Shown here: in pieces, positions 9,351-62,859 of the stretch
Layout: every line of letters begins with the position of its first letter
How positions within the stretch are numbered: position 1 is the first letter of the stretch
NCBI GenBank assembly: GCA_950295325.1
Contig: OX485803.1
Span: forward strand, 24,180,001-24,244,000
Length of the DNA: 64,000 nucleotides
From: Polytrichum commune
Taxonomy: Eukaryota; Streptophyta; Polytrichopsida; Polytrichales; Polytrichaceae
Direction of reading: 5' to 3'
Made by a program: the position numbers and the translations under genes
The notes under the pieces: model-generated
The model's database searches: none
What the model was told of the DNA's origin: nothing
What the model saw: the letters and a program-made list of their open reading frames with translations, nothing else

Positions 9351-10499
9351 CTTGCGTGCATATACATTGGAGGAGCCAGGTCTACATATTCAGTTTGGCC
9401 AATACTTCTATTCAACTACAACATCCCCCCATGGTCGACAACCAATTTTTTTTCATCATGATGGTTATGATAATCCTAGGCCCGGATTGTGTAACAACAC
9501 TGAACTTCGATGGAATGGTGGTGCCAATATTGGAAGAACTATTGGAATGTTGGATGCCGGGTGTGGTGTGTTTTGAAGCAACGAGATGGAGTGTTTATGT
9601 CGAAGGCCATGATAATCGAGGAGGAGGCTTATAGTCCTTTCCAGAAATGCCGCCCTCTGAGGCGGCCACGTCATTTGTTAGGGGTCAGGGTTAGCGTTAG
9701 AAAAGCACCAAAAGTTTGGTGTTTGCATGACTTTCCCGTGTACGCCATGTTGTCAGGTGTGTCAAAACAAGGGGCGCGTGGTGTGTCCAACTTGTGGACT
9801 GTACACACCCACACGCTCATCAAAGTCATTGAAGGAGATATTTTGCGGGGGGGCAACATCGGAGATGGTTACCTCAAGGACACCCATTTAGATAAGACAT
9901 AGCAACATTTGGTTTTGTGGAAATACGGGAAGCACCTGAAAAATCAAGTAGCATGTCACACTTGTGTTGGGGTCTTATGCAGGAAGAGTATTTGGCTCAT
10001 GGCGGGGAACCTAATGGTCCATTGGACCCAATGAGTGCATCCGGGGTGAAACATGGGCCAACACTATACATGTTGCCATACTTGGAGGCAAGTTTATTCT
10101 AAACCACCTTCCTTTGAGCTAGATGCTATCAGTTTGACTTTCATATAATGAGTTTCACAAATCAAGTGTCACTATATAAGATGCATAAATTCACATTCAT
10201 ACAATGAATCTAATATGGTTAGTGTGTTGTGATTACATTACTTAGGAAAAAATAACATTCTTAGCAAAAAGTTATAGCACTAGGTAACTCCAAAAACAAG
10301 TGACACAAAATACCATAAACGGTGTAGATGTTTAGAAACGTATGTGCATTGAATATTTGATGAAAGTAAATAATATTGACATGTGATACGTCTAACACAT
10401 AGGGATTGCTAGTTAGACACATATTGGACACTATGCATGTGGAAAAGAATGTTTGTGCATTGCAACTATATGTGGTTGAGGCATTCATCTCAAACTCTC

Positions 10500-10765
10500 A
10501 CATGCTAAATTTCAATGCCATGTCAATCACCAATTGAATTGGCATTGAGTTGAGGTTTGGAAGGTACAATAAATTCCATTGCATTAACACATCTATACTC
10601 AATGCCAACTCAATCGACAACAAAATTAGCATTGAATTATTCATCCATTGATTCGATACTATAAACACACTATAAAAATTGGAATTTGAAATAATAGATG
10701 ATTGAGTTAATATTAAACTTTCCAGCCATTGATTTGGTGCTGTGAACATATTGGATTTTTTTGAA
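10500..10765. repeat. Left subterminal repeats of the Plavaka-like element
   Basis: Recurrent words GCCAACTCAAT, TTGATTCGATACTATAAACA and CATTGATTTGGTGCTGTGAA occur here. Their complements appear at 21,670-21,785, so the two ends face each other. Such subterminal arrays are typical of transposase binding regions in CACTA elements. Confidence 0.55.
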
Positions 10766-12244
10766 ATATTATGAAACAATACTAAGTTGACACAAAATAT
10801 AAGAAATATTCAATGCAAACTTAGCATCTACTCAACAACAGTAAGAGTGCAGACTAGGCTATGCATCTTCCTCAAAACTTAAAGGAGTTTATAAAAAAAG
10901 AGCCTTCCTTGCTAAAATTCGGAAGCACATGAATGGCTCTAAGAATATTTTGAACATCAAGAATCATGTAAGATTCACACTTTCCTACGTTACTCTTGTT
11001 CCTTGCTTTACTAATTTGAGACTTAGTTTTAGGCCAGATGAGTTGGGAACATTCAACTAGCCTACTAAGTTGAGTGGTAGGAACTTCTTCATACATTCTA
11101 AGAAATGCTAAATCTTTAACAACTCGATTTTGGACTTCATCTTCAAAAGACACTTTGAAAATCAATCGAAGTTGACCATAATAGGTCAATTCAGACTTAC
11201 CAGGTGCCTCCATCTGAATGGCAACACTACTAAACCATGGTGAACCAAAAAATTTGCTTGTTGCTCGTACATATTGTGGCATGCTACCAAAGCGGTCACC
11301 AGGACCGGCAGGGATGGCGATAGAAGTGAAAACATGAAGCACCTGTTCATGTCAAGAAATTAATCATCACCCAAACATGGATCATCCTAATAAAACAAAA
11401 TTTTTAATTAGCAAAAATTGCAAACTAAATACTTCAATTATAGCAAAGCTACATATAATAACATTGAACCGGTGTAAAGCATACCTCTCCACCTGTGAAA
11501 TTGTTTTCAACTTTGAAGGTATTAAAAGTTTCATAGAAATTGGTTTGTAGCTCTGGTTGCCCATGAATGAGATTCTGAGCACTCCTGGATACAAAAAGTT
11601 GCGTGGACTCAAATGAAAATCCAAAAGCTGGATCCAACCATGAACTTTGCAAGTTGACTTTTGCTCCCCATAAAACATTCAAACCTGATTCCACAGCCTT
11701 CAAACCCACAATACATTAAATAAATACCAGTCAAATTTGGAAACCACTCTAGCTTTTATAATAACAAATGCCACACTTTAGCCAACTTCAGAAACAAGTC
11801 CAATAATGACTTTCTGAACAATGATAGAATAAACCATATGATTGAAAACTTACTTGGTCTAGTGAAGTATATTTCTCTTTCTCTCTAGAGTTATCAAGCC
11901 CCTCCATAGTGTCTTGCATCTTCCGTAAGGCAACAAGTCTTTGATTATGTCGGGCAATTTGAGGAGTAGCTTGCCTCTTATTGCTACTTTTGTATCCAGC
12001 CTTCATCAAAGTTGTATGCATTTGTTCATACATATTGGTACTATACTCCCATGGAAGTCCAGATCGGCGGATACAATCATTAAAATGTGACATGGCATGA
12101 ATTTTCACTGTGTTAAATCCAGATTTTTGCCATTTCAACATGGCTCTCTTCATAGCTTGTACAGACCTGATTAGCCAAAGACATTTGAAGATTATCAATT
12201 TGTTACTAAAAAATTAAAACACCTAGAACTTAATTCCATTAAAC

Positions 12245-12421
12245 CTCAATTCCGTTAAAATGGCCTTCCATGTGCCATTTGGAAGAGCATATGTGCAATT
12301 TTGGCATCCGTTGAGAAACATTGTACCTTGAAAAACCTCCCAAAACCTTATAATTTTATTGACTTTTCGTACCCTAAAACGCGCCATTTTGGCATTATAA
12401 AGCCGTTTCAACGGAATTGAG
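12245..12421. mobile_element. 177-bp MITE in a transposase intron
   Basis: Ends are CTCAATTCCGTTAAAATGGC at 12,245 and, inverted, CTCAATTCCGTTGAAACGGC from 12,421. It sits in the intron between exons 12,655-12,513 and 12,166-11,854. No clear target duplication. Confidence 0.6.
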
Positions 12422-13115
12422 TATATTTCTTACAATCAAATTGTTTCATTTCTAAAAAGAACTGAATTGCTAACAATATGACATGACCATAGCAAAAAAA
12501 ACCAAAACATACCTTATCATAAGCTCATCCATTTTGGCCAATGAATCTTGTGTGTGTTTTGGACTACGAGTAGCAACCTTGTACCATTGTAGAAACAATA
12601 CAAAGGCTCTAATGACATCATCTTTGTAGATCCCGACAAGGCACAAAACAATCACCTGAAAATGATACAACAATAACAAAAACTTCAATACCAAAATGAT
12701 ATTCACTAACAAAACTTTTAGAAAGATGTTCGAAGTCCATGAAGGTAGTAAAAAACAAAAGCAAACCTGCATAATTGCTCGATGCTCAAACCCTGCAAAG
12801 TTTGCATTTGATCCAAAGTATCCCCCCTTATCAGTTCCTGGAATCCTGGAAAAATAATAAATAAAAGTATCAATTAACAAACAACCAAACAATTGTCATG
12901 TTTTTTAATTGAAAACTATTTATTCAAAATCACACATTTTCTACAAAAAAACATGCAAATATGACAGATTAATAAATTCAAGATAAAACAAACTTTAAAT
13001 TATGAAAATTCTAAGTAAATTAATGATATTTCACCCAAATAATTCTAGGGATATGAAATAAACACCTAAAATGAGCATAACGGGCCTCCTTTTTTATGAC
13101 AAGTAGGCGTTGATC

Positions 13116-13613
13116 CACGGGTAGATCACTCTAAGGCATTTTTGTGCACCACGTGTGGCTGGGGTTTTTTTTGTTTTGGGGCTATTTACCTTCAAGGGCT
13201 GAATTAAAGCCTCCCTATAATTACTTAAATTTCAAAAATGGCCCATTTGTTTGCACCCTTCCATTACTTATATTGTCCAAGTCACTGCAATTTTTTTATT
13301 CTATATTCCTTTTAAGTAATTTTGGACAAACGGGAATCCCAATTATCATCCATCCACGTGAGTCCTAAACCCATTTACATACCATACTAAACATACCTTC
13401 TAGGATCCTTATCTTCAGCCCCTATATTAATTTTACAAAATTTTTTTTTGCCCACGTTTTATGTCCATCTACCTTACTTATAATGGGATTGTCTACATTT
13501 AATGGCCCCTTCATTATTTGGAATTCCTTTATAATTTTTATTTCAAATGATTTTAATCCTCTCTATATTATGCCGCACGTCATTTTTAAAATGCACTAAG
13601 TGATCTACCCGTG
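13116..13613. mobile_element. hAT-like MITE inside a transposase exon (498 bp)
   Basis: Perfect 15-bp inverted ends, CACGGGTAGATCACT (13,116-13,130) and its complement (13,599-13,613). The 8-bp flanks CGTTGATC (13,108-13,115) and CGTCGATC (13,614-13,621) differ by one base. An 8-bp duplication is the hAT signature. The transposase frame reads AIKELD up to one flank and QRLLVIKKEARYAHFR from the other, so the insertion point in the coding sequence is exact. No transposase is encoded. Confidence 0.75.
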
Positions 13614-15952
13614 CGTCGATCAAGCTCTTTGATTGCCCTTGAGTGCATAATATCACCATCACTTGCCATAGATCTCAAAATTCCTATAAGCATCTTGAAT
13701 ATACCAACATTTGTTTGATGGAGAACATCAACTTGAATGGCCAAGTAAGGATTGCCAAACTCAGTGTTTCCACCATTGAATCCCCAAAGAGCACACTACA
13801 ATAAAACAAAGGAACTTCTTTAGACCAAAATAGTCAAAGTACCATATTGGAAGTACCAAATCCATTGGAGAAAACATTGAATTATTTGAACACTTACAGG
13901 GATTGGATGCAATGACCATTGCTTGGAGAGGGCAGCCACATCTTTCTTATCTCTTGTTTCCATCATGGCTTCGTACACCTCTTGCATATTTTTCTCTGTG
14001 CGTACTGAATGTTTTTGATGAACATCTCGTAAAGAATCCTTTCCACACAAGCAGATGCTACAAGGAAATTGACATTTGTTTGTATCAAATGTGCAACTTA
14101 CTTGCAAAGATTCTCAATTATAATCAACTTTATATAAAAAATAATAATATCATACAAATAATTTAGAGTTACAATCTGAAATTTCAAACTATCAACATAA
14201 TTAAACAATGAGAATAAACTTACTTTACAACCTTCGGGATGGTCACAAATGTACGAGTAGAGGAGTGGATAAACCCATTGTGCTACACCATGTGGGTCCA
14301 CAAGTTGAAGTCCACTAATTATTCAGACAACAAAGAAAACTTATAAATTATCATTTCATAGGACAAAGAAAAGAAAAGAAAAGATAATAATTATACAAAA
14401 ATGAAAATAAAAAAATTCAGTCAATACCTAAAGCTTGCTTGTTTTAAAGGCTCCATAATGCAAGCAAGACATTCTTGTAAGACTTCTAACTTGCGTGCAG
14501 AAAAATCCACCTCTGATATTGAAGCACCTGTATTATTTTTCAATCATGAATTCAAACTTGGGTTATGGAATTTAGAACTTCCTCTAGCTTTATCAACTAC
14601 AATAGTAATATTCATACCAAGTAAACAAATTTTGGTGCAAATAAGAACTTACTTGAAGTTAAGATCGGCAATATTGCAAGGAGAGTATGGCCTTGCGGAA
14701 GGGGTCGGTTTTCACAAGCAACATTTCCTAAAGACATCATCAAAGGATACCCATGGACTCTTCTATCATTGGATAATGTGGTTTGGTCACTAAAGAAAAT
14801 TAGAGGTGCAATAACAGCTCCATCGCAGTTCACATGTTCCTGCTAACACAAAAGTTTCAAATTCGTGACAAGATTTAGATTCACTTGCATAAAAATCCAA
14901 CTTAGAGTTTGAGACAAAAAAATAATTAAACAATCAAATTGGTCACATACCTCCATGGAATTCCACCACAAGCCAGTGTCAGGAGTTGATATTGCTTCTG
15001 ACAAGCAAGAATGCAACTTGAAATTGTCAGCATTTGCTGGGTTAGAAAAAATCTCTGTGAGAGCCTCCACTGGGTCCTTGTAATACATCACTACTTCATG
15101 GAGGTCATATGGAACACAAAGTACTTGATGCTTCAGCCAACCCTGAAACCATACAAGACTAGTGTACTTAAGAAATCAAGTATCACACACATAAAAAGCT
15201 CACATAAGAAAGGTACCATACTAACAATTCTACCTACACTATACATATTAATTACTCACGCTTCAATGCATGTGATAAAGACATTGCTTTGAAATAAAAC
15301 AATTTGAAAATTAGTTAAATAAACTTACTTGCTCGCCTTTGTATAGATCATCTTCAAAGTGCTCAACATCACGCACATTCCTCAAGGAGATTGAATCCAA
15401 GTCAAAGGAAGGATGAAATAGCATCTTTAACATGGAATCAGTATCATGTTGAGATAAACCTAAATTGTTTCGACAAGTTCTAATAAAATGAATTAGATGT
15501 GTCGTTGAGTCATATGCTTTCTTCGGGTGGTCCTAAAGCCTTTCAAATCCTGATAATTCTAGGCCAAGCTCTAGCATTAAACTTGTATTTGATGGTTGCA
15601 TTCCAATGGTCCCAGTGACATGGGGAGTTGAACAAGGTTGGGCACCGGGGCAAAGGACTGTAGGACAAGATTGGGCATCAAAACTATCAGCTGAAGGTAG
15701 ATGAATAGATGCAACATGCCTTGAAGAAGAGACACGAGTGGATTGATCAACACCATCTGGAATCACATGCAAATATTGAAAAAATATTTGGTTAGATTGA
15801 ATGTATTATTGAATAATATTGTTGCATAACCGGTATTCTCTATATTATTGACTAATAAACTAATACACAAATGAGAATGTCTTAACTTACTTGCAAAGGT
15901 CGACTTTTGGCTGACAAAGCTGCAATGCCAAATTTTGTTGAGGCTTGATGTA

Positions 15953-17109
15953 CCGTACGTTAAGGGCAGCTTCGGCACAAAATAATTCTAAAAATAGACG
16001 CCGAAAATTTTGGAAAATTATTGACATTTTTTGCCGAATATAAAATTAATTAATTTTCAAAATTGCCGAAAAGTAAGAAATTTTAACTTCTCACTAGAAT
16101 TTTACTTACACTGGAAGCATATATGAATTCTGATGGAGAGAAGGTGCTCATTTTGTAATCAAGCTCACTTACATTAGTCCACAAAGAATATGGGTTAAGA
16201 AGTAGCAAGACTCTAAGTGAGGCTTTTCAAATGTGTTGTACACAATTTTTTGGAGTCCAATTGAGCATAGAAGATGAAGTTTTATAGAATTTTGTCCAAC
16301 TAACAAAAGTTGAGAAATCAAGTAATCTTCCACCCCCAACAAGTTTTGTGTCAAAATAAATCTTTATGCAAAAGATATGGACAAAACATTGCAGCCGTGT
16401 AAAGATCAAAAAATTAAAATGCGTTCATAACAGTTTTTCGGAGCTCATTTGTGCATAGAAGATCAACTTTTTTGGAATTTTGTTGCTCTAAGAAAAGTTT
16501 AGAAATCAAGTAATCTTCCACCCCAACAAGTTTTGTGTCAAAATAAATCTTTATGCAAAAGATATGGACAAAACATTGCAGCCGTGTAAAGATCAAAAAA
16601 TTAAAATGCGTTCATAACAGTCTTTCGGAGCTCATTTGTGCATAGAAGATCAACTTTTTTGGAATTTTTTTGCTCTAAGAAAAGTTTAGAAATCAAGTAA
16701 TCTTTCACCTCCAACAAATTTTATGTCATTTGAAGACTCTATGCAAAAGTTATGCGTGTTATAAAAATGAAGTCTAACTAGGTGCTTCACCTCAAACTTT
16801 ACATATCCCATATGCATTGTTGAACACAACTCCACTCTACTTGTATAAAGCACAGAGCATTCTCAACTCTTCACAAAATCGTGAAAGATTTATATCTTTT
16901 GTAAAACTCTTCACACAAATTGTGAAATCGTAAATAAACATTCTTGTTTACCGTTAGGTAATAACTTCTTGGATGTATGCCGAAATTGCATTATTAAACT
17001 ATTTAAAATGCCGAAATTTTTAGTAATTTTTTTTTTCCCGCCGAACACTGTTTTTTTACTTTTAATAATTATTCGGCAAGAGAGCGCCGAAGCTGCCCTT
17101 AACGTACGG
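15953..17109. mobile_element. Non-autonomous TA-target element (1,157 bp)
   Basis: The 24-bp perfect inverted ends begin CCGTACGTTAAGGGCAGCTT at 15,953 and mirror this at 17,109, flanked by TA on both sides (15,951-15,952 and 17,110-17,111). A single TA restores an open exon in the transposase zinc-finger region, supporting a TA duplication (Tc1/mariner-type integration). A TTAA target inside the repeat is a less likely alternative, because the repeats extend outward past it. The interior carries a 187-bp tandem array and no transposase frame. Confidence 0.7.
16230..16757. repeat. 187-bp tandem repeat, about 2.8 copies
   Basis: The anchor word CATAGAAGAT occurs at 16,266, 16,454 and 16,641, giving periods of 188 and 187. 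Copies 1 and 2 share a long identical 3' half (AAGTTTTGTGTCAAAATAAA through CAGCCGTGTAAAGATC). The third copy diverges after about 120 bases. The array lies wholly inside the 1,157-bp TA element. Confidence 0.85.
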
Positions 17110-17271
17110 TATTCGAAGAGCCCTTTCACTTGAAAACTTGGACGCACCACATGTCGGGCAAGTTAAATCTAGCTTTGGCTTTGACATCTCCTGCATTATA
17201 AAAATAAATTCAAACAAATTAACAAATTGAAGAACGAACCACAATGAATAAAAATTCTTCCCACAAGCCAA

Positions 17272-18960
17272 AGATTCTTAAAGCTTTCTTTAAGATTAGA
17301 AAGTTTGCCTCGAACATCTTAGTCCCGCTCTCATGCCCAATTCAATTCACATATATCGTAAAAACCATATTACAGATGAGGACAATGTCAGAGCATGTGA
17401 TTAACGAACACCAGTCAGAATACGTTGATTGTAAGTCTTCACACAAATGGGATGCAAGGGAGTAACAATGGCAGTAGATATATCACAACTTGTACTGTAC
17501 AACTCTTCAGAAGCCATGAGTGACTGAACTCATACTTATCACCATCGTACGATTCCTTTTTATTCTTGCCGAGACTTGCTCACAAATGGCGTACGTGGAG
17601 GTGGATTACTTACAAGAAATAGCACCAAGGCTTCACCACGTTTTGGCCGTTCTGCAACCGAATTTGTGGATGTTCTTTGCTGTAGTCTTGTTCAAAACAT
17701 CGGACAATGAACACAATGAGAAAAGCGTAATGCAAATGAGTCCAATTTTGGTAATGTTGAAAAGGCAACAACAACTACCACTTACAACACACTAATTACA
17801 CATACACTATGAGAGCGCAATGCCAATGAAAGAAGTATAAAGAAGAAACCAGACAGGGTAAGAATTTTAATTTCGAGGCCTGATTTTGGACCAAAGGAAA
17901 TGAAGTTATTAGATCTCCAGGTGATGTTAGTCACTATTTGGTATTCTGAAAGCATGAGCATTGTTTTTGTAGAAGTAGGGTATTCTTTCAACCTATGGCC
18001 TGACATGACACTCTTCATCAGATTTTTATTCTAGGTCAAACTATGAAATTCTTGGAATATTTTTGCTGGTGAAAATTGAGAATCACTATTGCAAACTGAA
18101 TATGTCCATGGGACCTTCATCTCTCATGGGGTTCAAATTACTGTTGAGAAGTGGTATTAGCGCTTTGATATACTCAGGTCTTTGTAAGAATACTGTTCAG
18201 TCTCATACCTGGTCATAGATCAAGATCTACCAAGCTTGTAGCTTGTCGTTGCTGCATCTATTCTAAGCATGTCCTCGTTGTGAAACTACAACATCAACAA
18301 TCCCAACTGATTCAAACACAAGCATCTGACCCATTAAAATTTGAATTTACACAACCAAACACAGATACAAAAGTATTTGAGTTCATCTTCGATTAGAGCA
18401 TCGACCTTCAAAAGAGAAATTAAACTCCTTCATGTATTCTTACAGGCCAAATGACTTCAACCTTAAGAAAATTACAGATTACAAGAAACGCAGACATAAA
18501 ACTAAAACAAGCGTCTGAACAATTAGAGATGAAAAGGGCTATACATAAATGTGTTAGATTCAAAATAAACTTTGGATGAACAGCAGGGATGAAATGCACC
18601 TCATTCAAAATTTCCCACTGCGTGTCGTGATGCTCTTGAAGCACTCGCCATGGCACACCATACGAGAATTCAATTGTATTTCCCTGAGCACCATGAGATG
18701 TTGCCACTGCATTTCTCTGCATTCACACAAAACGAGTCTTTTATGGTGAGCACCATGCTTTACTAAATCTTCACATCAACCAGTGTGATACACCAATAGA
18801 GATTCTGACTTCTATGATTTCAAATGCAACCTATAGTCCACACTACCATTTGATGAATATACTATGCAACTGAAGACTCAGAAATATCCATGATCCAGAG
18901 GCCAATAGCAAGAGAGAAAGCAAAATATAAATTGTGTGAAAGACTAGAAATGATGAAATC
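17272..18960. promoter_or_regulatory. Central region between the two divergent transposon genes
   Basis: No exon is firmly called here. By position it should hold the first exons and promoters of both the transposase (leftward) and the accessory gene (rightward). Short open frames such as 18,420-18,722 (minus) show no recognised motif. Confidence 0.35.
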
Positions 18961-18971
18961 AGCTTGTACTA

Positions 18972-21188
18972 ATGTCTCACATATTCTGTAATTCTTTGAT
19001 GTCATGCAGGTGGATGTATGTCAGCATGCAGCCTGTTCGAGGAGCCTTCAAGCATGTCCAAGGACAACGAAATATTCGTAGCCCTAATCAGACTATACCA
19101 TGCACACCAGAGGATCTTCTCAGGATTCCTGAGGCGACTGGTACATTCATCAGATGACTGTCATTAAATGTAAAGATTAATTGAGCAATTTAGTAATTTA
19201 TTAATAGTATAGATTTGGATTTACAATAGTTAATACTAATATGTGATCTTTTGTTTGCATTGCAGTTAATAATACACATTCTTTTAGGGCAACATTCAGG
19301 AGTCCGTTAAATCGGCGGTCCAAGCGTTCCAATAGCCAGCATGTGTCATGTACACAAGTGCGTCTTAGTGAGAATACACCTCCTCGAGATCAACCTTATC
19401 CTAATCCATTACCATCTGGTAATCATCAAAACTTTCTTGAATTGATTTTCTTAAAAGAAAATAGTTTGTTCTAGTTTTTGTACAAAGCCATTAAGATAAG
19501 CCATGTGATAGATATAATTATCTAACAAAATAGTTGGTTTACTAATTCCCTACCAAGTATTTTAGTAATTCTCAACTAAGTAATTTTCCTTATTTGAAGT
19601 TGTTGGAGGCAGCTCCCGTGTGATGGCAACTCCAACTGCTCAGATTTCAAGAGGGGATGAAGGGCATCCGGATCTAAGTCATCAGGTTTCTGAGGAGGTA
19701 ATGTTTTCATAATTGCTTAAGTTGAGTTTTTTTAATTCTCTTTTTAATTTTTTTGTTTTATTATTTTCTTATTGAACTACCTTGTGACTACAGAGGGAGT
19801 CCCCAATTGAGGATGATGGTGTTGTGAGAACCATGGGCAATACAGTGACTGTTAATAAGTCAGCATTTGAGAAGCTGCGGAGTGAACAACTAAAGAAGCT
19901 CACCTCTGTTCAAGCTAAGCAAATTGCAGTACTCACTGAAGCGCTCAAACAATATCAAGAGAAGAGTGATATTCCACATTGCTGCCAAGTTATGCATGTG
20001 AAGGTAAATTCTTTTATGATTTATCTTTTGCTTTACATTATTTTTTCCCTTTATTAATTAGAATCTAAATTAGAATTAGTTATAATGTACAAACTCATTC
20101 TTTACTAATGATAATCATATTTAGAATGACTATTTGTAGAAGGGTTATTCATGATTTGTTTGGCATACATATTCACTAATGTAAGGTTTTTTATGACAGA
20201 AAATTATGACAGACGTGGCTACTAAACTCTTGTATGGGAGCCATCCGTTTTCCACCTTGTACCCATCTGAGGAGGTGGTGAAGGAGTGCATCCTTTCAGC
20301 TTTGGATATTACTGAGGAAGATTTAGCGACACAGGCCAAATTTGATAAGGAATGGGGCCCTCTGGGTGAAGGAAAGCAAGGTAGCTTACAACATTTTGCT
20401 ATGAAAAATACACGAGATAGGCGTGGTCTTATGACCAGTGAGTTGCGGAATGAATTCTACCGTTTGATAGATCATCCAAAACTAGAGGATGATGTGGATG
20501 GTTCCAAAATTGAAGCATGGAAGGAATATTTGTGTGTTTCATACAAAGGTAGGCCTTCTAGAGAATTCAAATTCATTTTGAATATGCAAGTTTTAATTTT
20601 TTTTTCCAAAGTTGGAGACACATTAAAAGTATGTGTAAATGTATGGTTGTGAGAATCTTTGTTGTTTTTTTCTTTTTCTTATTGCTATTTCTTTTTTTTG
20701 AATCAAACAGGGAACACATGGCAAAACGGCGTTAATGATGATGGTGTAGTGGATCCCTATGGGTCAAAAGCAATTCATGGTGCTATTGGTAGGGTGCTAC
20801 ATGGGGCACACTATGACCGTTCAAAACCTGTCTACATCACCCAGGAGCAGTTTGGCTTTTTCATATACGTGGTGAGTTCAATTCTTCTATTCTATGTGAT
20901 TTTATTAATTCATGGTTGTGCATGAATTTTGAATTAATTCAACTTCTTGTTTAGTTCAGTTTTTTTTCAAATTGAATTTAATACAAATTATATTTTGAAT
21001 TTATTTTACTAAAGGAGTTTTTTTTTCCAATGGGAGTGGTACATGTATAGATACAACTTGCAGCTTTGGGAAGAGACATGAAATCTGGCCATCCATCCAT
21101 GCATTTTCGGCTTATGAAGCAACTGGAAGAGTCAGTTCTTCCGAAGATGAGGAACATGCGACGATTAATAATTGTAGAGAAACAATGA
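18972..21188 (+). CDS. Intact 425-aa accessory protein of the Plavaka-like element (unknown function)
   Basis: Seven exons: 18,972-19,140; 19,266-19,418; 19,600-19,697; 19,794-20,003; 20,200-20,548; 20,711-20,871; 21,051-21,188 (TGA). All six introns have GT-AG borders and compatible phases, and the total is 1,278 nt. The start is the first ATG of the frame; an acceptor at 19,009 could instead join an upstream exon. The N-terminal third is Ser/Pro/Arg-rich and probably disordered (TFRSPLNRRSKRSNSQ). A helical segment follows (KLTSVQAKQIAVLTEALKQY). The C-terminal half looks globular, with HPFSTLYPSEEVVKECILSA and GAHYDRSKPVYITQEQFGFF. I recognise no domain. It is read divergently from the transposase, inside the same subterminal repeats, and may be a DNA-binding or accessory factor like CACTA second proteins (inference). 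Confidence 0.65.
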
Positions 21189-21664
21189 TTTTGTATTAGT
21201 TGGACATTTAGGCGTGATTTGTTTTTGGAACTCATTGATTTGATTGATTGTTGATGATTTTTTACCCTCACAGAAATAAATTGAATTTGGCAATTTGGCA
21301 ATTGAAAGATATTATAGGTTTTTGGAGCCTTTTGTAACATTTAGGATTTGACTCATTTATTCAATTTTTACCAAATTTGTGGTTGATGCAAGATTCTCAA
21401 AATAATTTAATTAATTGAAAATTCAATCATATATTTCAATGTTGAGATTATATATTTGGATTGTAATTGTATTGGTACTTATATAATATTTGTTGGCTGT
21501 GATTGAAATAATATCGAATTTGAACTTTAATAAAAATGTCAAAGTTGATACTATGTTAATATTTGGTATTTATTTTAATTTCTAATTATTAGTTGTAATA
21601 ATAAGAAATAAATGGATGAAGAGTTTAGTATTATTTTAATTATCTTTTGTTTCAAATTTGATTT

Positions 21665-21790
21665 TTATAGTGTATTTATAGTATTAACTCAATAGTCAAA
21701 TGTTTCAGTGTGTTTACAGTGTTAAATCAATTGTTGAATACCTCAGTACTAACTCAGTCGACAATCAAGTTGATATTGAGTTGGCGCTAA
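21665..21790. repeat. Right subterminal repeats of the Plavaka-like element
   Basis: Read as complement this stretch gives GCCAACTCAATATCAAC, ATTGATTTAACACTGTAAAC and TTGAGTTAATACTATAAA. These mirror the left array around 10,590-10,720 in the same order. Confidence 0.55.
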
Positions 21791-21899
21791 AAAAGCACAC
21801 CCCGATAATCCAAATGAAATAGTACTAAAAATTACCATTTTAGTGTTGATTTTGACACTTTGGAAGTTTGTGATGAAGTTGTGCATCCCATAGGCATGT

Positions 21900-49457: not shown

Positions 49458-50360
49458 CTAAAATGAAAAAAGTCTCCACTTACTCTTCAGACATGCTTGG
49501 GGAGCTCGCCAGAGCTTGAGCTTCTTGGGGCTCTTTTGCTCATAGGCATGCATAGAATTTTGCATACTCCAGTCATCGAGAGCAAGCTGAAGATCGTAGA
49601 GTTTATTGGAGAGGCCTTTGCAACAATTTGCATGCATGGTAACAACCAAGGTCATGTTCTTGCTTTTCTGTACAAGCAGACAGGAGATCAGTGAGAAGAA
49701 TATTTTTCTAGTTCTGCAGAAATTCAAGTACAAACTTCAAGAATCTCTTGCACCTTAAAGAGAATAGATCAATTTCTTTTACCTTCATTTTCTCCACTAT
49801 CCTCTCCCCCACTGTTCTCTCCTGTTCACGAATTGATCTAATAGTGTGTAAAGGTCCCCAAAACTCCATCCAAAAAATCCACAGAATATGTGATTAGGGT
49901 TTTGCTAGAAAATGGACTTACCTGACAAAATCCTGAAAAGTAGTCAGTATCCAAGAAACGAATACTGACTTGCAAGCGGTGAAAAGCTCTCTCTCTAAAT
50001 ATGAGATTGAGCACATCTTGATCATGTTTCCCAGGATGTCTTAATCTGGCTTCATACCAGTATCTATACATAGCAATAGTGCGACGATTGGAACGGACAT
50101 AAACAAAACCTCCATTTGGTGAATTCTTATGGATATTGAAAGGCTGCCCATTGTACCGGTCGCATGCAATTTGAAAATCAGCATTGGTGTCAAAGCTTGG
50201 AAAGGGGTTACGAAACCATAGTATATCTGCATCCTGAAACAAAGTAATTGAAGAGTATTTTAAGCACAAGCCTGAATGACACAACACTTGCTCAAAGAAA
50301 GAATGCCTCACTGAGGGCAACGAACAAGACATTGAAATTAAATTGTCTCTAAAAAAGGCA

Positions 50361-50392
<32 letters not shown>

Positions 50393-52644
50393 CAACATAA
50401 TGCAAGCATCTTCCAACAAAGAGATATGAGACCCTTTAAATGAAAGTCTATGGGTTTGTTGTGTTGAACCGAGAAAATGAAGTTGTACTCCAACTTGAGA
50501 ACAGCTTCCAAAAACTTGATTCTCCTCCACATCATTCTCAAGTAATCTTTGGTCATGAATAATTTTTCGCCACTGAAGTCGACTCCAATGGTTCCGAGCA
50601 TGAAGCAGTGCGGGTGCAGCTGCAAGCATCGGTCTTGTGCTTTTTGATCCAGTGTCACAATCACCAGGTGGTCAAGAAGATGTCTAATTTTGTGGCCTTG
50701 ATGAAAACATGCGAGGTAAAGGTCAATCATGGTGTTATTAGCAGCCCATGCTTTATTCAAAGTTGTGAGAATAACTGTCTTATTTCGCATCGATGCTCTT
50801 GATAACACATCTTCCAGCTCCTTCACTTCCTTCTCACTCTAATAATCAGCAGATTTATCAGTCAGTAAGTAAGGGAGAGGAAAAACTCAAATTCAGACCC
50901 CCTTTACACTAGAGCTTAAGTTGAGAGCTCAAACTTGCAATAATTTTTGGGAGATTGATACTTGGAGTTGACAAGTTTCCATTGAAAGCTCAAAATATTG
51001 AGAGCTTGAGCAATCTTCAAGCTCTCGATGGATTGAGCAAGTGTAAAGTGGCCATGCTCAAAGTGAGATATCGAGAGGAGAAGATACTAAACCAAGGAGA
51101 TTCATGACAAGCTAAAGAATGCTTGAAAGCCCATAGGCTTGGGACTCACAAAGAAAATAAGAGCTTACATTCTCAACATTCTGAAGCTACCTCATTTTGG
51201 TAGCTTAGGATTTAGACCAAGAGGTTGTCAAAATGACCACATGGGATCCATCAAAGCACCACCTAAGCATTGCAAGCCCCATACAAAGTTCAAGCTCTCA
51301 AGTTGAAAAAAGCTTGTGTGTAAAGTGGATTAGAGCGAACAAGCATGTGTGAGAGGCTCCTTCCGCCAATGAGAAGGCTCCTTTCTTCAAGCTCTCAACT
51401 TGAGCTCTAAGTAGTGTGAAGGGTCCATATAAAATAATATATAATAAAACATTTTTCTTTTTAAAAAGCTCACATCAAATCTCTTGAAATAATCAACAAT
51501 TGAATGATGAAGTGACTGACTTGTTGTTACAAATGTTAATGTTACACTGCACTATATGATGCCTAATAAAGTAAATGTCCAAGGGTCTCTCATGTCATCA
51601 ATTCAGGTGTTTTGGAGCTCCCTGGACAATTTCAGGCTTTGACACCAGATCCAAAAGTTGCATTAGATTGTGATGGAATCAGGACGAGGTGAAGTGAAAC
51701 AAATACAAAAAAAAATTTAAAAAACTCTAACAAGAATGACACCATGTTCAACGTAAAGAAAGGAACCATGTTCCCTGAATGAAATTCTCAAGGTACCAAA
51801 GGTGATTTAGCTAAGATACATAGCCCCAAAAGCTTAATTTCTCTGAAACAGTGTTGATGAGAACCTCGTCGTAGGTGACACTCGTTAAGACAAACTAAGA
51901 TTTAAAAATATGAGTCAAAGAATTGCTTTGCGATTATTTGTCCACTGTTTGCAAATCTTACACGATTCTATATTTACATTGCTGCAGTGCACTATTTGGC
52001 TTGAGCTAATTAATAAACGTCCAAGGGTCTTTCATGTCACCAATCCAGGTGCCTTGAAGCTCCCTGGACAATTTCAGGCTTGGACACCAGATTCAAAAGT
52101 TGCATTGAATGTGATCGAATCCAGACAAGGTGAAGTGAATAAAAACAAGAAACCTAAATTGAATGACACCATGTTTGCTTAAAGAAAGGAACCATGTCTC
52201 CTGAATGAAACTAAGTTAGTAGGGCTTGTTAGGGCTATCAAGATTCCATAGGTGATTGATTGGCTATGATACATAGCCCAAGAGCTTAATTCCTTTGTCG
52301 TAGGTGGAGAAATTCATCAAAAACTCATCAAGATTCACCCGGAGGAGATGTAGAATATGATGCTTTGCAAAGCATTCGTGCACTGAGAAATTAAAATACC
52401 TACTCACATGATTGGAGTGTAGACCCAAATCACACAACAATGACATGAGGAGGCATGAGAATAAAGTATGAAAGAAAGAAAGAAAAATTCTCACCAGTTC
52501 TGAATCTTCCCTGGGTTGATGATTTAGGAGGTCAAAATTGGGCACTCCCGAAGCTTTCTGGTACGTGAACAAACATAGCAGGCCGATGAGTGTGGCAGCC
52601 ACAGCTGTGAAGAGAAATTCCCTCACCCTGAAATCCACACCCAT
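49458..52644 (-). CDS. Nucleotide-diphospho-sugar transferase family protein, 4 exons, 346 aa
   Basis: Exons (minus): 52,644-52,495; 50,838-50,470; 50,233-49,922; 49,667-49,458 (TAG). All introns are phase 0 with GT-AG ends, total 1,041 nt. The ATG opens a short cytosolic tail and a signal anchor (about residues 10-28, FTAVAATLIGLLCLFTY), so a type II Golgi membrane protein is expected. The catalytic region carries TLNKAWAANNTMIDLYLAC, then the DxD-containing DADILWFRNPF (174 onward, donor-sugar/metal binding), NGGFVYVRSN, KHDQDVLN and the C-terminal HANCCKGLSNKLYDL. This order is that of the plant PF03407 family (At4g15970-like, GT77-related). Substrate cannot be told from sequence. Intron 2 has a weak donor (TCG/GTTCAA) and a trinucleotide repeat. 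Intron 1 has a MITE and a duplication. Probably functional. Confidence 0.9.
50357..50392. repeat. (GAT)n microsatellite in intron 2 of the sugar transferase
   Basis: About twelve ATG/GAT units between exons 2 and 3. On the minus strand it reads as a run of Ile codons when the intron is translated. Confidence 0.9.
50896..51426. mobile_element. CTTTACAC-type MITE, complete copy (531 bp), in sugar transferase intron 1
   Basis: The left end GACCCCCTTTACACTAGAGC is mirrored by the right end AGCTCTAAGTAGTGTGAAGGGTC. Interior words AGTTGAGAGCTCAA and its complement form extended imperfect inverted arms. Ends resemble the 7,905-8,396 MITE (CTTTACACC). Confidence 0.7.
51541..52288. repeat. Tandem duplication in sugar transferase intron 1
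   Basis: CCAAGGGTCT, GCTCCCTGGACAATTTCAGG, CCAAAAGTTGCATT, GACACCATGTT and GATACATAGCCC occur in order at 51,579-51,824 and again at 52,021-52,277, a period of about 442-453 bases. Confidence 0.8.
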
Positions 52645-59647: not shown

Positions 59648-62483
59648 TTACAAATTGATGGGGTCTGTGTAGCACTTGGTTTCCTTGACGCCACCATAAA
59701 AATCAGTTTCGTAGTTATCTGTATGCCTGAGGAGGTCTTCGCTTAAACCCACACAATACAAGCTAGTTAAGTACGAAAGCACCGATAAGGCAGCTTGGTC
59801 CTGCCGATGGTTCCACCTGTCGGAGCCTTCGGGAGCAATACACTGCCTTGTGATGGAACATTCATACCACGGCCGCATTAGTTTTTTATAACTGTCTAGA
59901 GTGAAGCCAATTCGTGATGCGTCACAGTTTGGTTGATTCTTGATGTACGGAGCGTTGGCTCGGAAGAATTTTAGCTGTGTTGGATATGTCCACTTTTTCA
60001 CGGTGTCTTCGGATTTGTGGCCGCCAAATCCAACTTCTTTAACCCAGTCCAAACTGCTGGTTAATGCTTCAGGTGTGAGAATTCGTCCACCTGCGTCGAC
60101 CCAGAGAATAAATCCTCGCTCTTGGAGTATGGTGTGTGCCATAATTGCCTTCCATGCATACTCTCCTGCATTTGTTTCAAAAATTACTCCATGTCAGCTT
60201 TCAAAATTCACAAACAAGTTTCGAGTTGCAAGGAAAATGTAGGAATTTCAGTTGTAGCCTTTAAGCATAGGGAAAAAATTGTTTACCCTTGAAGGTTCGA
60301 GAGAAGGCCTCAAGGTGTCATTTTTAAGGGATTAAGATTACTTGAAACGTTTAACTAAAAGAGTCAAAAGTGACCCTATCTCAAGATTAGTTCATTTATG
60401 CATGTGTTATTTTGATTGAAGCACACATATATGTAGAACAAATCATAGTGAGGTTTTGGCTTGTATAAATGACTTCAGTTTCAGGAAGGATCCTAAATTT
60501 GCAAGTTGCAAGAGATGTAGGTATCACCGCTGCAAGCTTTCAGCATAGTTAAAGATTTGTTAACCCTTCAAGATCCAAGACGTCCATTCTAGGCCTCAAT
60601 GTGTCATGCACAGGGGTTTAAGATTACTTCTTGATATATTTAGCTAAAAGTGTCAAGATTGACTCTATTCTGAAATTAGTCCAATTATTCATATGCATCA
60701 TTTCAATTGGAGCACACATATATTTAAAACAAATTTTAGGGAGATATAAGCTCATTAAATGACCTAGACTCAAAATCATACCAGGTATGTCACATATTAT
60801 CACATATTGTCATAAATTCACCATTGTCACATATGTTACTCACTTTGTTCTGAAAGTCTTTACATTCTGCCACTGGACATAAGATACACCAACAAGTTTT
60901 GACAAGTTGTCACAAATCAACCTGAGCAACATGCTTAATTTGGCTCATTCATTCAACAAGGAAACTGGATATGAAGAACATAGAATTTGCTACACGGATG
61001 GAAGACATTATTGAAACCATAGAGGACCAACTCCCGATGAAAAGTTCCATTGTGTTTGAAAGATAACTCTAATAGGTAAAAACAGGCATTCTTGGTTTTG
61101 ACATCAAGGTTTTCAGAATGGAGAGCACCTTTTCCACCATCATGATTTGCGATGAGGCTTGCGTTCAACCGCATCCATGTCGGGTAATTCTCAAACGGAA
61201 ACCTGCGAACTTCGGCCTCCACACCCACCTCTTTAAGTTCCTGAATTACACAATCCAGATACTTTTTCTCTACTTCATTGAACTCATCCATGGTCCACAC
61301 CACCATTGAGACACTGTATTTCTTCGAAACTGTTGGGTTTGAGGCCGCATTCCCCAACGAACGCAAAAGAAGAAGTCCATACTTGAAGTGGTTCCTACTA
61401 AATGCTGTTACAACCGTTGGTCTCCAAGCTGGAAGAAGCGGGGGTTGGTAAGCTGGATCCAGTGCGTCCAAGTCAACTATTTCAAGCTTCTTATAGGATA
61501 TCGGATCGGTCCATTCTCCACACGCTTGTTGGACGTATTTTTTGGTCTGCCCAACCACCAAGGTCTCACAATTGACCTGATCACAAGCCACCAAGAACCA
61601 TGAAATTAGTGGCATATAGGAAGGAAAGAAAGAAAGAAAAAGACGACTCCAACCCTAATCATCTATTTGAATCTTGCACAGTAAGTGGAAATGAAGTCAA
61701 ATTGCCTTCGATGTGAGATAATCTTCACATGTGTACAAAGACAGAAAATCCACAAAAAACTCATGATGATACAGCCACATTGGAAGAAGAAGATTTATTG
61801 AAAAGGCATAAAAAGGAAACAAAACTAACCCGTTGCCTTGTACTCGACATTTTGAGGAAGCTTTCGCACTTTACGGCGGGGCCGAGGGCATCCCGCACCA
61901 TCTTACACACAAGGGAGGTATAATCCACCCTCACCAACACCTCCTTCAAATCAGCCTCCACAAGTCCAACTTCCTCATTTATTCCTGCCACTTTGAGCAC
62001 TCGCTGGAAAAGCCGCCGCAAAGTCGCATACGGTAGCGCACTGAAACTGGGCAAGCTGCTATCATCCCCCACAACTATGACAACACAAATTTTTTGAACT
62101 GCTACCTGATTCGAACTGATGAATGATCTGTGCAATGGCAGAGCCGCCACGGTTTCGGAGCAACGAGAAATTGGGATGGTGAAGCGCAAGTAATAGGATG
62201 TGCTGATGAGAATTAGGGAAAGTAATAGAAACATAGCGAGCACCGAGATATGCACTGGTTTTCCACATACATGCAGCACCCGCTTAAAAAATGCGGGATG
62301 GTGATGATGAAGATGTTGATCCTGTTTCATAAAATTTGGTAGGGATGGTAATTTCCACCCCCTCCATCCCCAGGTTGAATTCCTGCTTTTGTGCTCATAA
62401 TGACTACCCGCTTGGCCTAAAGATTCGGACGAACCAATTGTCATAGTCCCTATAGCTTCAATGGGCAATCCCGCACCAAGCAT
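59648..62483 (-). CDS. Membrane-anchored glycosyltransferase-like protein, 3 exons, 536 aa
   Basis: Exons (minus): 62,483-61,830; 61,576-61,138; 60,165-59,648. The GT-AG introns are in phase 0 and 1, total 1,611 nt. The N-terminus is hydrophilic with a His-rich stretch, followed by one transmembrane anchor (about 77-97, VHISVLAMFLLLSLILIS), giving a type II topology. The lumenal part has WRPTVVTAFSRNHFKYGLLL (Rossmann-like start), VVWTMDEFNEVEKKYLD, RRFPFENYPTWMR, YAWKAIMAHTILQERGFILW followed by VDAGGR (about 388-392), and a C-terminal RQDQAALSVLSYL. The WVDAG segment after an alternating hydrophobic strand resembles the acceptor/donor acid motif of GT-A folds. I think it belongs to a DUF1647-like family, named with moderate confidence. 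Substrate is unknown. It could act in cell-wall or protein glycosylation. No damage is seen; exon joins are clean. Confidence 0.8.
60228..60775. repeat. Tandem duplication in intron 2 of the membrane glycosyltransferase-like gene
   Basis: Two copies, about 290 bases apart, share TTGTTAACCCTTCAAG-like, GATTAAGATTACTTG, TTTAGCTAAAAGTGTCAA-like and GCACACATATAT words (60,235-60,475 and 60,515-60,770). An inverted third copy lies at about 37,620-37,740. Confidence 0.7.
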
Positions 62484-62859
62484 ATCTGTTCTTTTGGTTT
62501 TGGGGATTCACTTTACCCACCAAACCTCTCTTTTCATGTATCAAACCTTACAATATGTAAAACGCTGATCCTCGTGTAAGATTCAGAAGCCGTGTCTCCA
62601 AGAAATAAAGTGATCCAAAACATTTTGGCATTCTTTACCACTCCGGCGCTCCATTGCAAGGAGCCTCTACGTAGCTCTTGTACCCAAAAAAAAATGATCC
62701 TTTCTTCCAAGAGCTTTGATCTTCTTGAGAAACCCTAACCCTTCTTTCAAAATGGTCCTTAAAACCCCGCCTAACTAATCAGCTGCCAAATTTTATTTTC
62801 TTCCAAGAACAGGGGACTAGCTAGGGAACTCCAAAAAATTTCTGGTGCCTCAAACACCA

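Follow-up and report, generated by a model that had tools for sequence, protein, structure and literature searches.

The locus described here raises the question of whether a land plant can carry a Plavaka transposon with two genes. The initial annotation of the window, by which we mean the whole 64,000-nucleotide stretch of Polytrichum commune DNA that was analysed, had proposed such an element in a plant genome, with a transposase gene on the minus strand and a second, unrelated spliced gene transcribed away from it. Plavaka elements are described mostly from fungi, and some of them include a TET/JBP gene thought to counter methylation (accessible part of PMC12730594); the records outside fungi, in the accessible parts of the sources, are from the green alga Auxenochlorella (PMC12636532) and the ichthyosporean Amoebidium (PMC11244446). 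No land-plant Plavaka, and no two-gene form from a land plant, was found in the mostly open-access literature searched. On the basis of searches of the 408-Mb genome (64 contigs, with the window on contig C1), we conclude that the window very probably holds a decayed Plavaka-type DNA transposon, one copy of a land-plant element that is present in low numbers and has two genes, the product of the second (referred to as P2) being an accessory protein. That the host is a plant is supported by NAC domains, which are not known outside the plant lineage and which the genome contains in 28 exon matches from about 14 genes, a lower bound. Such a small number may point to a bryophyte-like plant in preference to a seed plant and, taken with the seven large contigs, perhaps to a moss with n = 7. 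The window also has long open frames on the minus strand, at 49838–50671 (with the motif DADILWFRNPFPSF) and 59648–62507, which we take to resemble plant glycosyltransferases.

The transposase gene occupies positions 10872–17187 of the minus strand and is broken in the window copy. Its 13 exons join in one frame (933 codons and a stop when spliced) once two inserts are left out and an X is written for the one in-frame stop, giving a protein of 933 amino acids. All 12 intron donors are GT, and the acceptors are AG with the exception of those of exons 2 and 7, which read AA in the window and AG in another copy of the element, L001. The three landmarks that had suggested a Plavaka transposase are all present on the minus strand, with CPTCGASKFSSERAL at 17160–17116, SDQTTLSNDRRVHG at 14791–14750, and FAGFEHRAIMQ at 12799–12767. 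The profile search leads to the same assignment: the spliced protein matched the Pfam family PF18759 (Plavaka transposase) with an E-value of 6.7e-38 and 131.2 bits, against a cut-off of 26.3 bits, over profile positions 41–318 of 325. No other Pfam family was matched at E-values up to 1, and no KDZ family was among those matches. A search of the genome with PF18759 gave ten exon matches, whereas the same search of 14 control genomes, a weak control, gave none.

Plavaka and the CMCT clade are described as having the residue order D, D, C(2)C, H(3–4)H, E (accessible part of PMC12730594). The transposase shows this order, with its residues assigned by order and conservation. The proposed first catalytic Asp is D277 (within SDQT) in exon 4 (14653–14839, minus strand), the window exon that matched PF18759 on its own, and the conserved D361 (within DPHG) in exon 6 (14224–14314, minus strand) is proposed as the second. 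The C(2)C motif (C399, C402) is encoded by exon 7 (13898–14101, minus strand), whose acceptor is lost in the window copy, and the H(3)H motif (H625, H629) by exon 11 (11854–12166, minus strand), together with the proposed catalytic E649. In a query-anchored alignment with three more distant families of the same genome (B, C, and D; see below), D277, D361 (as DPxG), C399xxC402, H625xxxH629, and E649 are kept, with family D lying outside the alignment coverage at H625, H629, and E649. The exceptions are copy L003, in which C402 is replaced by Y, and copy L001 at D277, where the aligned row is in the wrong frame, though exon 4 of L001 does read SDQT. The Asp of VDVLHQ (D476) is conserved too; residue order points to D361 as the second catalytic Asp, with D476 as the alternative. 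Other candidate relatives of the protein were rejected: a search of 706 of its amino acids against the PDB returned designed trefoils as the sole matches (E-values of 0.002 or worse), and a NifW match of exon 11 fell under the Pfam cut-off.

The ends of the element were set from its other copies. L001, L002, and L003 match the window from CATCTCAAACT on the left to GTTTGTGATG on the right, and the breakpoints common to L001, L002, and L003/L017 delimit an element of 11,390 bp, later inserts included, at 10486–21875 (CATCTC…GTGATG). The element that had been placed at 10270–21850 is therefore borne out, but its ends were wrong, being at 10486 and 21875 by the other copies. The left terminal inverted repeat, CATCTCAAACT (10486–10496, plus strand), differs by one mismatch from the right one (21865–21875), which reads CATCACAAACT on the minus strand; with GATG at the right terminus, the last base is 21875. 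This region of the window is a DNA transposon with CATC…GATG ends.

Breakpoints common among copies, together with CATC…GATG ends, were found in three families. The termini are CATCTCAAAC and GTTTGTGATG in family A, to which the window copy belongs, CATCTCAAAT and CTTTGAGATG in family B, and CATCTCGATT and AATCGAGATG in family C. At the fifth base, the left end reads CATCT in all three families, and the right end reads TGATG in family A only and AGATG in families B and C. A T precedes CATC in all three of the family C left ends at L006, L010, and L011, so that the boundary of family C is less sure. Equal dinucleotides flank six of the seven copies with both ends in hand, corresponding to a 2-bp target duplication (TA in L001, AA in L002, TA in L003 with L017, TC in L007, AA in L008, and AT in L010); L014, the first bases of whose left end are gone, was left out of this count. 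At the base frequencies of the window, the probability of at least six matching dinucleotides in seven by chance is about 8e-7. The exception is the window copy, which has TT on the left, AA on the right, and no target duplication; recombination or a later change may account for its unmatched flanks. At L011, a 339-bp stretch of left-end sequence from family B (L011:697–1035) is directly followed by the start of a family C Plavaka element, a junction that looks as if the latter had inserted into family B.

These ends also bear on the possibility that the transposase belongs not to Plavaka but to the ordinary plant EnSpm/CACTA or the KDZ enzymes, which the relatedness of Plavaka to EnSpm (accessible part of PMC12730594) might favor. 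We consider it very unlikely, given that PF18759 is the sole Pfam match at E-values up to 1, that the ends are CATC and not CACTA, and that the duplications are of 2 bp and not 3. Membership in EnSpm/CACTA was rejected on the same grounds of ends and duplication length. The element thus has a Plavaka transposase, CATC…GATG ends, and a 2-bp duplication in most copies examined.

Genome searches with single ends list four near-identical copies with both ends, namely, the window copy on C1 and those at C6:9.06M, C3:21.58M, and C3:38.64M; in the last, an insert interrupts the right end, the outer portion of which is found at C3:38668710–38668868. These copies constitute family A. They are about 97–99 per cent identical to the window, from which we infer that family A moved in the not too distant past. 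Beyond family A, we distinguished three more distant Plavaka families: by our own grouping, the transposase matches fall into 15 loci, of which 4 belong to family A, 4 to B, 6 to C, and 1 to D. A 42-residue match at C1:39957794 (E-value of 8.5e-5) was left out of the locus count.

The plus-strand gene accompanies the transposase in other copies as well, as expected if both belong to one element. A protein search of the genome with P2 gave 56 matches, which we grouped into 20 places. Of the 15 transposase loci, 12 also have P2; they are spread across all four families, and P2 is divergent from the transposase in every one of them. Within family A, it lies inside the same ends in three of the four copies, and the copy at C6:9.06M has lost it through an internal deletion between intact ends. 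At C4:54.5M and C3:43.43M, P2 was not found in the 9.9 kb examined per locus or by the genome search. At C6:44.07M (L006), transposase and P2 are about 9 kb apart. Between them lies a PIF/Harbinger pair (DDE_Tnp_4 and Myb/SANT; L006:7206–9855) that is apparently nested; this transposase and Myb gene were considered as an alternative second gene and rejected as a separate Harbinger pair. Nested inserts abound in the region, which is what a chance neighbor or a nested unrelated element on the plus strand would call for, but the recurrence of P2 inside the same ends in three of four family A copies, and in divergent orientation at 12 of 15 loci of four families, makes such a coincidence exceedingly improbable. 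The head-to-head arrangement of P2 and transposase is fixed in four related families.

Most of the P2 places (18 of 20) carry other Plavaka element sequence. Among those outside the transposase loci, L023 and L024 retain the last transposase exon, L014 has both family C ends, and L013, L020, and L022 combine P2 with a right end from family B or C. The copies L013, L014, L023, and L024 (families B and C) have lost the transposase mostly or entirely and keep P2 and element-end sequence; L013, L023, and L024 have several pieces in common, in the same order. L016 consists of a bare 515-bp piece. At L021 (C7:35.47M), a diverged P2-like stretch (L021:2630–2908; 26–27 per cent), near which no Plavaka element sequence was found, may be what is left of a fifth family, or may be a host relative.

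The two proteins rank the families alike. Transposase identity by exon is mostly 53–67 per cent between families A and B and mostly 41–56 per cent for A against C, although a few short exons fall above or below these values; for P2, the values are about 44–51 and 28–39 per cent, respectively. Both proteins therefore rank A and B closer than A and C, as expected for co-inheritance.

P2 itself has an unbroken frame at 19014–21188 of the plus strand, head-to-head with the transposase, in agreement with the predicted second gene of seven exons transcribed away from it. The exons (19014–19140, 19266–19418, 19600–19697, 19794–20003, 20200–20548, 20711–20871, and 21051–21188) are separated by six GT–AG introns and encode 411 amino acids. 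Because exon 1 begins right after an AG, a further 5′ exon is possible. The positions and phases of three introns, i4 (phase 0), i5 (phase 1), and i6 (phase 0), agree among families A, B, and C (with i5 of family B from L008), and introns are hence kept in three of the four families. In six comparisons, P2 identity is.29–.40 at codon position 3 versus.59–.77 at position 2, a pattern that shows, on sequence comparison, constraint at the protein level. Individual copies are damaged: in L002, exon 5 of P2 contains a stop and is preceded by an altered acceptor, and in L004, the donor following exon 4 and the acceptors of exons 5 and 6 are altered.

The protein has a basic N-terminal part (residues 1–100, pI 11.3), a presumed coiled coil, and a conserved C-terminal region with the motif DPYGSxxxxGAIxxVxxGxxY. 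Its matches to Pfam were all under the cut-off, and no known accessory-protein domain, including Myb/SANT, was among them. One of them, Arfaptin (PF06456), reached E-values of 0.0005 with exon 4 alone and 0.0012 with the whole protein (20.2 and 18.9 bits, against a cut-off of 32); it covers the presumed coiled coil and was taken as a coiled-coil artifact. The best PDB profile match, poz1 (E-value of 0.23 over 36 profile positions), was taken as chance. A single-sequence AlphaFold model of exon 5, with a mean pLDDT of 42, was set aside and yielded no fold. Neither Pfam nor the PDB profile search nor AlphaFold thus revealed a fold or a DNA-binding domain in P2.

Could P2 be a gene of the host, picked up a single time by an ancestral element that has since carried it as useless cargo? 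Its introns, its lack of a family match above the cut-off, and its presence in the deleted copies L013, L014, L023, and L024 without most of the transposase would fit such an origin. Useless cargo is at odds, however, with protein-level constraint and intron conservation across families that are about 30–50 per cent identical, and the genome search for P2 found no clear host paralog, with C7:35471129 (L021) and the bare piece L016 as possible exceptions. We regard the cargo explanation as unlikely. P2 has been retained alongside the transposase for a long time, and we continue to treat it as part of the element.

The window copy is a dead fossil, because exons 1 and 8 of its transposase are split by inserts, exon 2 is interrupted by a stop, and exons 2 and 7 have lost their acceptors. 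Exon 8 is split by a later insert of ~0.5 kb (about 13116–13613) with perfect 15-bp inverted ends (CACGGGTAGATCACT) and a duplication of 8 bp (CGTYGATC) or 9 bp (GCGTYGATC), with one mismatch. The insert in exon 1 is a 1.16-kb MITE (15951–17111) that has 26-bp perfect inverted repeats, a 187-bp tandem repeat in its interior, and a TA duplication. Among the matches listed are 32 other full-length copies of it, at 97–99 per cent, which indicates that this MITE was very active recently. The region upstream of P2 is also rearranged in the window copy. Positions 17848–18986, a later insert or rearrangement ending 27 bp before the P2 start codon, match C1:71455048–71456187 at 99 per cent, the one other place among the matches listed, and L002 and L004 have another sequence in common at this point. 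The remaining family A transposases are damaged as well: in L001, a stop interrupts exon 1 and single bases are missing from exons 4 and 13; in L003, exon 1 is absent and single bases are missing elsewhere; and in L002, exons 1–6 are absent and additional stops occur. No intact family A transposase was found among the window copy, L001, L002, and L003.

Inside the ends of the element lie the subterminal inverted repeats that had been reported earlier and that hold up here. They pair 10597–10696 with 21682–21781 (70 per cent over 100 nt) and were found again by genome search, with E-values of 1.1e-12 in the window and 2.5e-11 in two other copies. In family A, a 27-bp motif occurs twice inside each end in inverted orientation: at 10645–10671 and 10726–10752 on the plus strand, and, within the inverted repeats, at 21669–21695 and 21707–21733 on the minus strand. 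The motif was absent elsewhere in the window at up to four substitutions, and, as it was drawn from these four sites, their count is not independent of it. Family C has 46-bp tandem repeats near its right end, arrayed in 6.6 copies in L009 (9535–9838) and lying within about 500 bp of the terminus in L010 (1220–1587); the array is a possible candidate for protein binding.

We propose that the transposase belongs to the DDE enzymes of the CMCT (RAG1-like) type and would excise the element at its CATC ends and reinsert it with a 2-bp stagger. P2, with its basic N-terminus, presumed coiled coil, and conserved C-terminal region, would be the accessory protein of the element and would most likely bind the inverted subterminal repeats as a multimer. 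Bound P2 could help to build the transposition complex or control expression from the shared intergenic region, by analogy with TnpA, which binds subterminal repeats of a similar kind in En/Spm. This function is suggested by the position of P2, its conservation, and the analogy. Alternatively, P2 may be a silencing antagonist or transcriptional activator, like VANC of the Arabidopsis VANDAL elements. Plant elements encoding such proteins are on record (accessible parts of PMC5735166 and PMC10398659), and P2 borders the shared intergenic region and shows weaker conservation than the transposase does (about 44–51 versus mostly 53–67 per cent between families A and B), but it has no Pfam match above the cut-off, and we view a VANC-like role as possible, if rather doubtful. 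Returning to P2 as an accessory protein, we see about even odds for a stronger form of the proposal, namely a land-plant Plavaka lineage in which P2 is an obligatory second subunit, a new co-evolved family needed for the recognition of subterminal repeats (or for escape from silencing).

The plant element can be compared with several known systems. Like VANDAL elements, it is a plant element with an extra protein that is not a transposase (the anti-silencing protein VANC in their case); VANDAL transposases are of the MULE type, and P2, having no Pfam match, is set beside VANC by description only. PIF/Harbinger elements have a comparable two-gene layout with a Myb-like accessory protein, but their transposase is of another superfamily, and P2 has no Myb/SANT match, whereas the Harbinger pair in L006 does. 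En/Spm (CACTA) elements have subterminal repeats and two proteins, TnpA and TnpD, both produced from one alternatively spliced transcript, together with CACTA ends and a 3-bp duplication. Fungal EnSpm elements have CAC…GTG ends and a 3-bp duplication, and their transposase clade is related to Plavaka (accessible part of PMC12730594). The plant element thus resembles En/Spm in its two proteins, its subterminal repeats, and a related transposase clade, and differs from it in having two divergent genes, with P2 lacking a domain match.

The closest likeness is to other Plavaka elements. The EnSpm-Plavaka elements of Auxenochlorella are likewise of Plavaka type and from the green lineage (accessible part of PMC12636532). 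As described in the accessible part of Kojima (2025; PMC12730594), PlavakaA has TGT…ACA termini, unlike the CATC…GATG ends found here, and PlavakaB of Agaricomycotina has a transposase with C(2)C and H(3–4)H, CATC…GATG ends, and 2-bp duplications, all of which the plant element has in common with it. The published PlavakaB ends, however, are CATCA…TGATG (PMC12730594), whereas the left ends here are CATCT and families B and C end in AGATG; the target duplication of 2 or 3 bp given for PlavakaB (PMC12730594) agrees with the 2 bp in six of seven copies, the window copy having none. A land-plant Plavaka would extend the RAG1-like (CMCT) transposases of plants beyond CACTA, and the ends and duplications given here could serve the annotation of such elements in other plants, where 'uncharacterised' genes that belong to elements would gain a name. 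Some PlavakaB elements carry a TET/JBP dioxygenase (accessible part of PMC12730594), whereas the partner gene in the plant element is P2; a land-plant lineage whose second protein is conserved and unrelated to that enzyme would be evidence that Plavaka acquired helper genes more than once.
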